Assembly: GCA_947493265.1 (NCBI GenBank)
Contig: CANLQL010000004.1
Location: 310,001 to 374,000 of the forward strand
Origin: an uncultured Litoreibacter sp.
GTDB lineage: Bacteria > Pseudomonadota > Alphaproteobacteria > Rhodobacterales > Rhodobacteraceae
Direction of reading: 5' to 3'
DNA: 64,000 nt
The notes beneath the pieces were generated by a model. It was not told the DNA's origin and did no database searches. It worked only from the letters and a program-made list of their open reading frames with translations. Below are positions 4,532 through 8,882 of the stretch, piece after piece. A program made the position numbers and the translations under genes. Each line of letters begins with the position of its first letter. Positions within the stretch are counted from its first letter, which is position 1.

Positions 4532-5355
4532 CGACGCAACGACAACGCGATCCCGCCAAGCACAAGAAGGGCAGCGAGGGCAAACCGAATGCTGACCTCC
4601 TCCCCCAGAAATAGCATCCCACCTGCAAGTGCGATGACAGGCACGCTGAGTTGCGCGGTTGCGGCGATGCTAGTCTGAAGGCGTGGAAGAACCTGATACC
4701 ACAGTGCATAGCCCAGCGCAGAGGTGATCGCACCGCTGGCAATCGCCGATAGCAACCCCGGCGTGGAGAACTCCAACGTCGTTATCGGCAGCAAAACCAG
4801 CGCCATCAGCGGCGTCGCAATCACAAAGTTCGCCCCGGTTGCTGCAAGGGCGTCGCTGGATTTTGCCCCGATCAAGGAATATATCCCCCAGCCGACGCCT
4901 GCCACAATCATGAAGGTCGACCCAATCAGGTTCAGACCACCAGCCCCATCTGGCCAAAGCAAGACGCATAAGCCGCCGAAGGCCACAGCCATTCCCGCCC
5001 AGCGCAAGGCCGGGATTAGATCGCCGCGCAAGATTGCCGCCAGAAACATCGTGACCTGCACCATTCCAAACAAGATTAACGCGCCCGCTCCTGCGTCCAG
5101 TGTCAAATAAGCCAGAGAGAAGCCGCACATATAGGCCGACAGCGACACCACCGCAGCCCAACGACCCGAGGCGACCCAATTCAGACCTCCGTCGCGCAGG
5201 ACAAGAAGTCCGGTTAGGACCACGGCCCCGGCCAGGATGCGGACCAAAGCAAAAAGGCTAGGGTCCATGCCCCCAGCGCTGACGCCAAACTTGTTCAGCA
5301 CCGAATTGGCCGCAAACGCGACCATGGTCAAAAGGCAAAGAAGGAAGAGCTTCAT
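4528..5355 (-). CDS. EamA/DMT-family permease
   Basis: A 275-residue, very hydrophobic protein with about ten transmembrane segments arranged as two five-helix EamA repeats, and a short basic C-terminus. The family exports or imports small metabolites (amino acids, nucleotides, drugs); the substrate cannot be read from sequence. The 3' end overlaps dprA by four bases. The gene begins 163 bases downstream of the retron-like reverse transcriptase on the same strand, but nothing shows that the two are co-transcribed. Confidence 0.88.
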   Translation of the reverse strand: MKLFLLCLLTMVAFAANSVLNKFGVSAGGMDPSLFALVRILAGAVVLTGLLVLRDGGLNWVASGRWAAVVSLSAYMCGFSLAYLTLDAGAGALILFGMVQVTMFLAAILRGDLIPALRWAGMAVAFGGLCVLLWPDGAGGLNLIGSTFMIVAGVGWGIYSLIGAKSSDALAATGANFVIATPLMALVLLPITTLEFSTPGLLSAIASGAITSALGYALWYQVLPRLQTSIAATAQLSVPVIALAGGMLFLGEEVSIRFALAALLVLGGIALSLRR

Positions 5356-5518
5356 GAGAGCGTGTCGAAGGCCTTAGAATAATTCAGGCTTTCTTCTGGC
5401 ACATCTTCACCCAGAGCCGCCAGTCACGAGTGCGAGACGGGGTGAGGTTAGATGAGTATGGGTCCAGTCAGAATGTACCGCTTTCTCAAAATGACCGGTT
5501 CGTGGTTAAATCAGTAGT

Positions 5519-6817
5519 TTAGTTCGAGCTCTTTAAGGCCGTTTTCTTTAGAAGGCGCCGTAGCTTCAAACCGCGGCTTGGATTGACAGTCTCAAACCAA
5601 TCAATCTTGCCCAATAATGCTGCTCTAAAATCAGGATCCAAGAGACGGGTATCATCGGGTTTCTCGCAGGCATGAATAACTGCCTTTAAGTGGTCGAACA
5701 GTTTGCGATCAATGTTGAGGCGCTCGTTCACAACAACGCCCGTTACCTTCTGCCGTGATGTATTCGACATCAAACGGGTTTTCGCTCGATTGACTGCAAA
5801 GCCCTCATCACGAACAATTTGTGGAACAACCCTCAAGAGCGAACCAACAACATGGTTGTCTCCAGAGAAACTTAGGTCGTCTGCGTATCGACTAAAATGA
5901 GCGCCTAGACTATTCGCGAGCGCCGATAATCTACGATCAAGCGTAAAAGAGACGTGATTTGCCAAGGCTGGTGAAACTGGCGACCCCTGAGGCAAATGCG
6001 GTTTGCGGTACAATGACCTATCATCAAAATTGAGGCGTTCCAATATGCGCGGCGGCGTCGATGTCGTGCATAGTGCTGTCAAATATTGCGCGACTTCATG
6101 TGGATAACCAAGGCACCTAAAAAGTCCAAATATTCGCCCCGACCCGATAGTGGGAAAGAAATCTCTCAGATCAAAGCAAACCACGACATCTTCGCCTACA
6201 TGTCTGCTGGCCGCTTGCAGGCAATTCCGACCTTTCACAAAACCAAACGCGTCAGCGTGGCTTGGTAATTTGTCAAGGATGCCTCGAAGAATCTGACGTT
6301 GGACTGATTTCAAACTCTGCTTGGGCGCTTCAATCACTCTAATGCCCTTGGTCTTCTTTTTCCTAAAAACATAGTGATAGTGATTGATTGCAGTCTCACC
6401 GTGTCTCTCAAATCGACGATGCCGATCTGCGAGATACTCCAGGCGGGCTGTTGGTAACACGAGCCAATCAGCGAGACTTCCCACTGTTGGAAGTTGAGGC
6501 ACATCCACATCAACAAACGCTGCAATAGGAGACATGGTTGGTGATGTTAAGTCGCGAGCGGGCCAAATATCGCGCTTCTGACAATACCGATAAGCTCGCT
6601 CGAAATTGTGAATGCGTAATAACGAGCAAGCCACAGAATTGGTAGATGGGGCATATTGAGATGGTAGTACGAGAAACAGCTCAGCAACTATTTCTGGCAC
6701 AAGCCTGTGAAGTGCAAATGGAAACCTTCGCAATAAATTGAACGTTATGAATTCCTGTGTCCACGATCCAAGTGTAAGGCTGTCAGCTATATTGCGCGAA
6801 AATTCCAGCTTATTCAT
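5519..6817 (-). CDS. Retron-type reverse transcriptase
   Basis: A 432-residue RNA-directed DNA polymerase. Motifs in order: IRVIEAPKQ (about 159-167); AFGFVKGRN (190-198); the catalytic Asp216 in CFDLRDFF; LPQGSPVSP (275-283); the catalytic YADD at 311-314; NRAKTRL (343-349); and VTGVVVN (358-364). The last is a hallmark of retron enzymes rather than group II intron maturases. No maturase or HNH domain follows. About 115-140 residues precede the polymerase core, longer than in the ~320-residue Ec86 enzyme. Its base composition is visibly more AT-rich than neighbouring genes, suggesting transfer. A structured RNA leader lies just upstream; no recognisable effector is adjacent. Confidence 0.9.
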   Translation of the reverse strand: MNKLEFSRNIADSLTLGSWTQEFITFNLLRRFPFALHRLVPEIVAELFLVLPSQYAPSTNSVACSLLRIHNFERAYRYCQKRDIWPARDLTSPTMSPIAAFVDVDVPQLPTVGSLADWLVLPTARLEYLADRHRRFERHGETAINHYHYVFRKKKTKGIRVIEAPKQSLKSVQRQILRGILDKLPSHADAFGFVKGRNCLQAASRHVGEDVVVCFDLRDFFPTIGSGRIFGLFRCLGYPHEVAQYLTALCTTSTPPRILERLNFDDRSLYRKPHLPQGSPVSPALANHVSFTLDRRLSALANSLGAHFSRYADDLSFSGDNHVVGSLLRVVPQIVRDEGFAVNRAKTRLMSNTSRQKVTGVVVNERLNIDRKLFDHLKAVIHACEKPDDTRLLDPDFRAALLGKIDWFETVNPSRGLKLRRLLKKTALKSSN

Positions 6818-6828
6818 TTTAGAAAATC

Positions 6829-7079
6829 TGTTGCAACGAACGATCTCCGCTTTTCTCGGCTTCGCGCTACCTGATCTGGGTGAAGCCCAGCGGCGGTAGC
6901 GCCATGTTTGCTTAGGTAGCGTTCGCAGACGGGGATACCCCGCCCAACTCTATACATCGCAGCACAGAGCATCCAAAGACCGCCGTTGCACAAGCAACGA
7001 TGCAATAGGAAATAGAACTTGCCAACCCCAAGTTGGCGAACTGCACTCAGTTTCCTGCCAGTCGCCTCTTGTTGCAACA
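6829..7079 (-). ncRNA. Candidate retron msr-msd RNA
   Basis: About 250 bases immediately 5' of the reverse transcriptase, on the same strand, are densely self-complementary. In transcript order: a GGCGACTG/CAGTTCGCC stem (7066-7035); GCCAAC/GTTGGC with a 5-base loop (7036-7021); CGTTGC/GCAACG with a 4-base loop (6999-6984); CGGGG/CCCCG (6942-6930); and a nested long hairpin with an 8-bp GCGCTACC/GGTAGCGC outer stem and a CTGGG/CCCAG inner stem (6902-6864). Matching 9-base segments close both ends and could serve as the a1/a2 repeats. An open frame through this region looks non-coding. The boundaries and branching G are inferred, not proven. Confidence 0.55.
6829..7079 (-). repeat. Terminal repeats, candidate a1/a2 of the retron RNA
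   Basis: TGTTGCAAC occurs at 7079-7071 and its complement GTTGCAACA at 6837-6829 on the minus strand, giving nine exact base pairs. The core GTTGCAAC is self-complementary, so the copies are both direct and inverted. The second copy ends 11 bases before the reverse-transcriptase ATG at 6817. Known retrons also place the reverse-transcriptase gene shortly after the a2 repeat. The pairing is shorter than in some characterised retrons. Confidence 0.45.
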
Positions 7080-7361
7080 TCCCGTAATTTGGGGTCATCC
7101 TAGTCGTTCTCAGATATGTAGCACGCCAGCAAAAGACCGCTAAAAGTGCGGTGCCCAACGCCGCAAACTGGAAATCGCCCATCATGCTGCATCTGCAGCT
7201 CGCATTGCGGTCATTCGCTGCAAACACGTAATGCAGGTTAAGTAGACTTACAGATCCGGAATAAAGCGGCAGTCCGCTGCTCAATAGATGGGGGCCGTGT
7301 CAAAGAGGCGAGACAGTGCAATAATCACTACTCTAAGGATTGCCGCAATTCGGAGAAAGAC

Positions 7362-7745
7362 ATGAAGACAGTTGGCTTGGTTCTTGTAGCGCTCATTGCG
7401 GTGCTCCAATTCTATATCGCTTGGTTTGAAATGTTCGCGTGGACGTCGCGGGGTCCCAAAATATTTGACACTTTCCCGCCAGAGCTCTTTGAGCAAACCA
7501 TCCAATTGGCCGCCAACCAAGGCATCTACAACGCTTTTCTAGCTGTAGGATTGGTTTGGTCTCTCTTTATCAAAGAGGAAAAGTGGCAATTCAACATAGC
7601 GGTTTGTTTTCTGGTGTTCGTTGCAGTCGCAGGCGTCGTCGCCGCAATGACCGTCGCGCTAAAATCTGGCCTTCCACAATTCATACCCGCAAGTATCGCC
7701 TTAGTTCTCTTGATTTACTCGAGGAAGAGGAACGCGGCAGCCTAA
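7362..7745 (+). CDS. DUF1304-like small integral membrane protein
   Basis: A 127-residue protein with four hydrophobic segments (about 4-22, 50-66, 73-95 and 102-118) and a basic tail. The opening helix, the IAWFEMFAW segment and the ANQGIYNAFLA segment fit the DUF1304 family, which has no established function. The start is the ATG after GGAGAAAG. It is divergent from the retron-like locus, about 280 bases from the putative RNA start. It could be an ordinary chromosomal gene or an accessory of the neighbouring element; the sequence does not decide. Confidence 0.75.
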   Translation: MKTVGLVLVALIAVLQFYIAWFEMFAWTSRGPKIFDTFPPELFEQTIQLAANQGIYNAFLAVGLVWSLFIKEEKWQFNIAVCFLVFVAVAGVVAAMTVALKSGLPQFIPASIALVLLIYSRKRNAAA

Positions 7746-7901
7746 GTCGATGTGGCAACGGTCCATGGCGAACATTCAACAGTTCAGACCAAGCCGCAAT
7801 GCAGCTCAGAGAACACCAAAGCTGTCCTTAGGTCTGAGTATGCCAAGGGGCGGTCTCGAATGCGTTGCGTCAGTCGAAAAAACCCGCAGAGGCCAAAATT
7901 G

Positions 7902-7920
7902 AACGGCTATTAGAGCCGTT
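7902..7920. terminator. Hairpin in the gap between the DUF1304 gene and the dehydrogenase gene
   Basis: AACGGCT and AGCCGTT form a perfect 7-bp stem with a 5-base loop, between two convergent genes. There is no clear T-tract on either side, so this is a weak bidirectional terminator candidate. The rest of the 258-base gap shows nothing recognisable. Confidence 0.35.
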
Positions 7921-8003
7921 AACCAATCAATCGCCTGCGGAGTAATCTGCGATGTGGTGACGGTCTAGAATCTGTTTCGCATCACAGTGTGACGGATTGG
8001 CAG

Positions 8004-8882
8004 CTAACGCGATTGCTCCAAGAAAAGATCAAAAATTTCCGGCACGTTTCCCTCGGCCATCTCTGCGTCCAACGCTGCTTGCAGGTTTGCATTTGTACCC
8101 TCAGCGATTTGCGCTCGGATCCCCATGTCCTCAACCATTTTCAAGAAATACCCAATGTCTTTGCTGGCATTCGCGATCGAAAAGCCCAAATCGCTGACCC
8201 CGTCGACAGCGTAGTTTTTGCAAAACTGCATGAACGGGGAATTGGACGGACCTGCGGACATGATGTCGAACAGCTGCTGGCGATCAACGCCCGCACGGTC
8301 TGCGACCGCAAAAGCTTGGCTCATAGTGCAAACTGTTGTCATGCCCATGAAGTTGTTAATCAGCTTGGTGACATGACCTGCGCCAAGCGCGCCGAGGTGA
8401 AAGACATTTTCGCCTAGCAGGTCCAAAACAGGTTTCACCCGATTGTAGGTGTCCATGTCTCCGGCCGCCATGATATTCAGGAGACCGTCTTTGGCATGCG
8501 CTGGCGTGCGTCCGAGAGGTGCGTCAATCATGCCAGCGCCCCTTGCTGCAAGATCCGCTCCGATCTTGCGGGTTGAAGCTGGGATCGACGTGCCAAAGTC
8601 GATGACATCCGTACCGCTTTTGATGCCCGCTAAGATCCCGTCGTCGCCATAGATCAGGCTTTCGACCACGTCGGAAGTGGTCACGCAGAGCATGATGATA
8701 TCGCTTGCTTCGGCGAGGGCTTTGGGCGTGTCGACTTCGACGGCACCGCGCGCGGTGGTCGCCGCAACAGCTTCTTTGTTGCGCCCGATGACAACCAAAT
8801 CATAGCCGTTATTCTGAAGGCATTCGGCCATGTTGCCGCCCATAAGACCCAGTCCGATGAAACCGATCGTTGGTTTGGTCAT
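8004..8882 (-). CDS. NAD(P)-dependent beta-hydroxyacid dehydrogenase (HIBADH/GarR-like)
   Basis: A 292-residue 6-phosphogluconate/3-hydroxyisobutyrate dehydrogenase-family protein. The N-terminal nucleotide-binding fold starts with GFIGLGLMGGNMA. The substrate motif is DAPLGRTPAHAKDGLL, and the catalytic Lys lies in GHVTKLINNFMG. Such enzymes interconvert 3-hydroxy acids and semialdehydes (for example tartronate semialdehyde). The ATG at 8882 is chosen because GGAG lies upstream and the fold begins there. It is the last gene of a TRAP-transporter operon, so it probably oxidises or reduces the imported hydroxy acid; the exact substrate is unknown. Confidence 0.88.
   Translation of the reverse strand: MTKPTIGFIGLGLMGGNMAECLQNNGYDLVVIGRNKEAVAATTARGAVEVDTPKALAEASDIIMLCVTTSDVVESLIYGDDGILAGIKSGTDVIDFGTSIPASTRKIGADLAARGAGMIDAPLGRTPAHAKDGLLNIMAAGDMDTYNRVKPVLDLLGENVFHLGALGAGHVTKLINNFMGMTTVCTMSQAFAVADRAGVDRQQLFDIMSAGPSNSPFMQFCKNYAVDGVSDLGFSIANASKDIGYFLKMVEDMGIRAQIAEGTNANLQAALDAEMAEGNVPEIFDLFLEQSR

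Follow-up and report, generated by a model that had tools for sequence, protein, structure and literature searches.

Retrons are a known kind of element and have been studied both as phage defenses and as a means of producing DNA within cells for editing; the well-studied ones have a toxin. Ec86 (Eco1), Ec67 (Eco2), and Ec78 act with an effector that takes the form of a partner gene or a fused domain, and none was found at the locus described here. The effector dependence of Ec67 is covered in PMC12405507. A retron RNA has complementary ends (a1/a2) of about 8–30 nt. As described in PMC6868368, it has a priming guanosine at the inner end of a1, mostly within TAGC, and the reverse transcriptase (RT) carries a YADD core, NAXXH in region X, and VTG in region Y. 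The Asn of NAXXH is substituted in 2 of 16 known retrons, and the RTs of Mx162, Sa163, Mx65, and Ne144 have an extended N terminus of unknown function (PMC6868368). Some retrons without a clear associated effector have already been published (PMC8867640). Retron-Bth1, reported from Bacillus thuringiensis together with Retron-Sda1 from Sphingobacterium, is described as having no obvious effector and an unclassified RT (PMC12548924). The profiles distributed with PADLOC include msr-msd RNA models (PMC9252829), and a Sulfitobacter faviae retron with a PADLOC-style msr-msd and RT has an NDT gene between the two (PMC10221251); retrons as such are therefore not new to Sulfitobacter.

The window analyzed here is a stretch of 64,000 nucleotides from an uncultured Litoreibacter sp. 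On its minus strand, a folded RNA is followed by an RT gene (Table 1), and together they very likely constitute a retron of two parts as far as visible. The group to which it belongs is little studied, with no partner toxin gene found nearby, and its RT group is already represented in PADLOC. Compared with Ec86, Ec67, and Ec78, the RT domain is homologous to their solved structures and the RNA is of the same kind, with a1/a2 ends, msr stems, and an msd hairpin (PMC6868368). Mx162 has a transcript of 241 nt with a 162-nt msd, against 163 nt for the whole RNA here (PMC6868368), and Retron-Bth1, like the retron of the window, has no obvious effector (PMC12548924). The S. faviae retron comes from the genus of the nearest relative identified in this work, and its NDT gene is absent from the window (PMC10221251).

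Table 1. Coordinates of the RT gene and of the observed and predicted parts of the upstream RNA in the window
Feature	Position	Strand	Basis
Leader upstream of the RNA, common to the Sulfitobacter relative (L028); possibly the promoter region	6992–7057	−	Nucleotide identity
msr-msd RNA, whole conserved element, 163 nt	6829–6991	−	Covariance model; covariation in 24 loci; single-sequence fold
a1, 5′ strand of the closing stem	6984–6989 and 6974–6982	−	Pairs with a2
Candidate guanosine for priming and branching, unpaired and immediately 3′ of a1	6973	−	Aligned column; position in known retrons
msr stem-loop 1	6948–6969	−	Covariation, 24 loci
msr stem-loop 2, GGCGGGG-UAU-CCCCGUC	6928–6944	−	Covariation, 24 loci
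Predicted reverse-transcription template (msd)	6850–6925	−	Location relative to a2, stem-loop 2, and the putative branch G
msd hairpin, outer 8 bp and inner 5 bp	6864–6902	−	Covariation, 24 loci
a2, 3′ strand of the closing stem	6841–6849 and 6833–6838	−	Pairs with a1
Retron-type reverse transcriptase, 432 aa	5519–6817	−	ORF; PADLOC, Pfam, and PDB profile matches

Anatomy and Limits of the Upstream RNA

A preliminary description made from the letters of the window had placed an msr-msd at 6829–7079. The kind of element it named is upheld by the comparisons below; the limits are not, as the conserved RNA occupies only 6829–6991. Folding, proposed there as a check, gave a stable structure for the 251-nt stretch (z = −3.67; better than 200 of 200 shuffles) and a clearer one for the trimmed 163-nt RNA (z = −4.43; 0 of 200 shuffles as good), whose minimum-energy fold contains the same helices as the conserved structure. 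The a1/a2 closing stem has 6 + 9 bp. In the 39-nt msd hairpin, the outer stem joins 6895–6902 to 6864–6871 and the inner stem joins 6886–6890 to 6876–6880. Across 24 loci, the length of the element ranges from 149 to 167 nt. A G occupies the column of the putative branch guanosine in 23 of the 24 aligned loci; its context, UUGGA in the window and CAAG in others, differs from the usual (T)AGC. A search of 5000–8500 with Rfam 15 at E values up to 5 returned no relevant match and one irrelevant match on the other strand, and no promoter-like match was seen on the minus strand within 5350–7400. The leader common to the Sulfitobacter relative holds, at 7021–7037 on the minus strand, a terminator-like stem (GCCAAC-N5-GTTGGC) followed by a T-rich stretch; two terminator-like sites were found, against 2.1 expected from shuffles.

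Several alignments preceded those on which the structural analysis is based. The first (A1), which took in 16 loci with their flanks, was poor and gave way to A2, in which nine of the 16 upstream sequences were kept and which was made with MAFFT without reference to structure; the seven more divergent loci were aligned apart (A3), all seven being found later by the covariance model. A4 held 29 matches: 17 full-length ones (the window, as L003, counting as one place), 11 partial ones in the reverse orientation, and a weak one in L030. A7 took its place, with 24 full-length matches aligned to the covariance model, and leans towards the structure by construction. Three loci with another RT build (L025–L027) were excluded from A5 and A7.

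Applied to A2, the structure read off the window gives standard pairs in 90.5% of cells, compared with 42–47% when partners are slid by one to three columns. Double changes occur at 21 of the 41 pairs, a number reached by 0 of 500 shuffles, and the number of further pair types was equalled by 3 of 500. RNAalifold, run unaided on A2, predicted 32 pairs: it recovered the inner closing stem, stem-loop 2, and the long hairpin in both its parts, but missed stem-loop 1 and the outer part of the closing stem; on A7, it predicted 39. The 24 loci of A7 have standard pairs in 94.5% of cells (40–45% with slid partners) and double changes at 33 of the 41 pairs, amounting to 188 cells (0 of 500 shuffles). 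Within the closing stem, 90.7% of cells in helix 1 and 99.1% in helix 2 are paired, with double changes at 14 of 15 pairs. Stem-loop 1 is the weakest helix, with 80.8% of cells paired in the 24 loci and 71.1% in A2, and has double changes at all six of its pairs; stem-loop 2 is paired in 98.8% of cells, and four of its G-C pairs are invariant in 24 of 24 loci. The long hairpin had been put forward in the preliminary description as a plausible msd with an 8-bp outer and a 5-bp inner stem, and it holds up in all 24 loci: the outer stem is paired in 93.8% of cells (double changes at seven of eight pairs) and the inner stem in 100% (three of five pairs). Mapped onto a tree of the 24 RTs, with GU and UG cells treated as ambiguous, these differences need at least 133 Watson-Crick swaps, and 28 of the 41 pairs changed twice or more, so a few inherited changes do not explain the covariation.

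The compensatory changes that had been suggested as a check are therefore present in the form of stems kept by two-sided changes, and the amino-acid frame is not kept. The open frame running through the region had been said to have an unnatural Cys/Arg-rich composition, in support of an RNA; the homologous frame is stop-free in only 7 of the 24 loci. The corresponding ORF at 6814–7284 (156 aa) has no Pfam match and was rejected as a gene. In a single-sequence test for one uninterrupted helix with a span of 130–176 nt, 11 of 29 upstream regions beat all 60 of their shuffles, and for the window 29 of 60 shuffles were as good. The case for the RNA is a comparative one.

The most serious competitor concerns the limits of the element. 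If the RNA started near 7079, the outer copies of GTTGCAAC would form the a1/a2 end and the inner pairing would be an extension of it. Both copies noted in the preliminary description exist (6830–6837 and 7071–7078), and 11 bases lie between 6829 and the start codon at 6817, exactly as it had stated. The two ends are complementary over 9 bp in the window and, at a like place in the Sulfitobacter relative, over 14 bp with one G-U pair, and in the 251-nt fold the stem made by the outer repeats is outermost. A loose test, uncontrolled for chance, asked for any nine pairs in succession, G-U included, joining the 110 nt before the element to its final 16 nt at the a2 end; 5 of the 24 loci, the window and L028 included, had such a run. 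The outer pairing is nevertheless among the four best long-range helices in only two of 16 loci, the window and L028, which are close relatives, and as a general a1/a2 it was rejected; the inner a1/a2 is kept across all 24. The outer repeat also competes with 6984–6989 for the same a2 bases, and the word itself is common by chance, with five copies in the 64 kb against 1.9 expected and 5 of 100 shuffles holding as many, so that its recurrence says little. A longer element is consequently unlikely. The other small stems fared unevenly. A local CGTTGC/GCAACG stem pairs fully in 1 of the 24 loci, the window itself (five of six pairs in L028), and does not stand; in the conserved structure, the GCAACG at 6984–6989 pairs with a2. 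Of the short msr-like stems, that at 6930–6942 is part of stem-loop 2, and those within 6992–7066 fall outside the conserved RNA.

Co-Occurrence of the RNA with the RT

The 163-nt element was followed into related genomes together with its RT. A search of 394 genomes of the family gave RT matches at 1e-40 or better in 18, of which 15 are full-length and three match only within residues 102–389. These three (L025–L027) are called type-XIII-like by likeness to two further loci, L029 and L081. An uncultured Sulfitobacter contig (L028; 87% identical) came from a scan of named genome contigs. The upstream regions of the relatives have a common pattern: the closing stem opens it, two stem-loops, a linker, and the long hairpin follow, and the closing stem is completed a short way ahead of the RT. 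A covariance model (R1) built from nine sequences, to which eight of the 15 full-length family loci contributed and seven did not, found the RNA in 15 of 15 full-length family loci and in L028. Seven of these 16 loci lie outside model building and scored 44.8–90.9 bits; the window, which was part of it, scored 166 bits. R1 found no RNA in the three type-XIII-like family loci of the other RT build, and L029 and L081 matched weakly (best E = 0.45).

The RNA model was also run over 390 genomes of the order with the RT ignored, and matched in 16. The RT search of the same 390 genomes gave 17 at 1e-40, of which 16 are exactly the RNA-positive genomes, all with a full-length RT; the seventeenth (G083) is one of the three of the other build and has no RNA match. 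Six of the 16 RNA-positive genomes had helped to build the model and ten had not, one of the latter (G418) being a close relative of a contributor. In 16 of 16, the RNA lies upstream of the RT on the same strand, 11–55 nt from the first matched codon. Sequence comparison shows the RNA, its secondary structure, and its fixed place directly upstream of the RT. Three observations support the msr-msd reading: the stems are kept by two-sided changes and the frame is not, a retron-type RT adjoins the RNA, and the 16 of 390 genomes that have the RNA are those that have the full-length RT.

Proximity of this kind would also suit an RNA that is no DNA template and instead regulates the RT, as a structured leader or attenuator acting on its translation or transcription, since an RNA placed 11–55 nt before the matched RT frame could share its transcript. 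We consider this very improbable: a long closing stem with an adjoining G, two stem-loops, a long hairpin, and a retron-type RT make up the known msr-msd anatomy, and the RT has the VTG triplet of region Y, which is tied to msr binding in known retrons (PMC6868368).

The Reverse Transcriptase

By PADLOC, the best model for the RT of the window was RT_other (1.1e-125; residues 5–428), followed by RT_outgroup, which is described as "retron" (5e-118); both cover retron RTs without a numbered type and match it at full length, the N-terminal part included. The next best, RT_XIII (1.5e-94), spans only residues 103–427 of the RT domain and leaves the N-terminal part unmatched, and assignment to retron type XIII was rejected on these grounds. 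Nine other RTs were scanned in the same way; for the seven of this RT family the best model was RT_other, and for L029 and L081 it was RT_XIII. Pfam matched RVT_1 alone (2.5e-22), and the best NCBIfam model was the retron St85 RT family (9.6e-55, below the family cut-off). The closest PDB structures are the RTs of retrons Ec86, Ec67, and Ec78, matched within residues 145–415. These profiles, together with the closest solved structures, identify the RT domain as retron-type. Its active site is YADD at residues 311–314, and the VTG triplet of region Y is at 358–360. Region X reads AASRH (202–206), with Ala in place of the Asn of NAXXH; all 23 RTs compared have Ala203 and His206. The RT might instead be an antiviral one of the non-retron kind that uses a template RNA of its own (DRT-like, protein-primed or repeat-making), as several DRT systems also combine an RT and a neighboring structured RNA, but this is very improbable: the NCBIfam Drt2 model scored 2.2e-9 against 9.6e-55 for retron St85, and in a profile search of solved structures retron RTs came first (8e-51) and Drt2 reached about 1e-8.

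The retron-type domain is preceded by a conserved N-terminal extension of roughly 100–130 aa. PADLOC RT_other covers this extension also in relatives on Burkholderia, Tsukamurella, and Dietzia plasmids, which RT_other and RT_outgroup take in as well; Pfam, NCBIfam, and solved structures leave it uncovered. Among 23 RTs, Pfam found RVT_1 in 23 and six other families weakly, each in one or two members. An AlphaFold model of the RT made from two sequences had a pLDDT of 36 and was unusable.

Proposed Synthesis of the Branched Product

With a retron-type RT beside it, the folded RNA is very probably the template for a small branched RNA-DNA molecule, and its anatomy suggests how this molecule would be made. 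The RT would bind the folded msr, and the 2′-OH of the guanosine at about 6973, beside the a1/a2 stem, would prime DNA synthesis. The template would be the strand upstream of a2, with the cDNA starting opposite about 6850. Copying would pass through the msd hairpin and stop before stem-loop 2, placing the end of the cDNA between about 6903 and 6925. The expected product is a branched RNA-DNA with roughly 55–75 nt of DNA.

Gene Neighborhood and the Search for a Linked Effector

The DNA shared by the window and L028 extends from 5529 to 7057 at 89% nucleotide identity, with RTs that are 87% alike; at 7057 the likeness ends, so that the shared block comprises the leader, the RNA, and the RT only. 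When the neighbors of 21 of the 24 loci were clustered (ORFs of at least 70 aa; L022–L024 left out), no cluster other than the RT was common to the 21 loci, and the next most widespread cluster shown occurred in six. Ten neighbor proteins from seven loci, a part of the 24 listed neighbor proteins, gave no PADLOC match (0 of 10). Pfam was run on ten neighbors, mostly those scanned with PADLOC; four had no match and six matched, to DCC1-like, DUF4166, alcohol dehydrogenase, transposase, and two Crp-type regulators. Taken over the neighbor clusters of 21 loci, the ten neighbors scanned with PADLOC, and Pfam on 23 RTs, no effector gene or fused effector domain was found. The minimal unit shared with L028, the lack of a common neighbor cluster, and the lack of a PADLOC match among the neighbors make the element look like a minimal retron without a linked effector. 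The flank at 7081–7760 was searched for an empty site and gave only partial matches, in three other genomes of 21.

A few arrangements of individual loci may be recorded. In two genomes of a single genus (L064 and L065), two genes come directly after the RT, in L064 a DCC1-like gene and a DUF4166/saccharopine-dehydrogenase-like one; those clusters occur in 2 of 21 loci. On a Tsukamurella plasmid, a HAD-hydrolase-like gene (L079:5016–5624) starts 28 bases after a related RT. Just outside the block shared with L028 lies an inverted copy of the a2 end, at 7071–7080 in the window (9 bp) and at L028:2747–2760 (14 bp, one G-U), which may be a relic of insertion or may give a2 a second partner to pair with.

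A role in defense can be proposed by analogy with other retrons. The particle formed by the RT and its msDNA may, on a weaker footing than the steps of synthesis, restrain a toxic activity or sense attack on its behalf. No linked effector gene having been found, such an activity would need to come either from the conserved N-terminal extension of the RT or from a host protein encoded at another locus. We tentatively entertain a more far-reaching reading, possible though in our view doubtful, in which the RNA and the RT make up the whole system, a single-gene retron of 1.5 kb that would move as one piece and be conserved from Alphaproteobacteria to Actinomycetota. In this reading, either the N-terminal extension would itself be the effector or the msDNA would do something other than guard a toxin.

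Breadth and Significance

Beyond the family, the evidence is a lead and not a result. In a phylum sample of 398 genomes, the RT profile matched at 1e-60 in seven, three of them from the family of the window itself. Viral contigs gave 17 loci at 25–34% identity and no close relative. The relatives carried on Burkholderia, Tsukamurella, and Dietzia plasmids show, by eye and in single folds, a comparable upstream succession: a closing stem ending CAA or GA and then a G, next a stem-loop with G-rich and C-rich arms and three nucleotides in its loop, then a long hairpin, and finally the start of the RT. When R1 was run on 17 plasmid, type-XIII-like, and viral loci, there were eight matches, the best of which was from Burkholderia (L077; E = 0.025) at the expected place; the rest had E values of 0.45 or worse, and nothing comparable was found in L078, L079, or L080. 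Because R1 gives the plasmid loci low scores or none, the likeness across phyla rests mainly on inspection by eye and on folding.

No description of this RNA was found in the literature searched, a search that was not exhaustive and whose scope did not extend to the retron classification of Mestre et al. 2020. What the analysis provides is a precise, tested RNA model, without an Rfam match, for a retron group in which no linked toxin was found, in bacteria that L028 suggests are relatives of Sulfitobacter. The minimal cassette makes the role of a retron without a linked effector directly testable, and compact msr-msd/RT pairs are on offer for alphaproteobacterial hosts.

Two further RTs were observed. 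In a genome of another class (L100; G826, contig 1), a relative of the RT (E = 5.8e-120) has a similar upstream RNA pattern by eye, and the matched RT stretch contains one in-frame TGA. The genome of the window itself encodes a second, unrelated RT (L002, contig 3, 732260–735706), which PADLOC assigns to RT_UG13b of the DRT class (1.8e-128).
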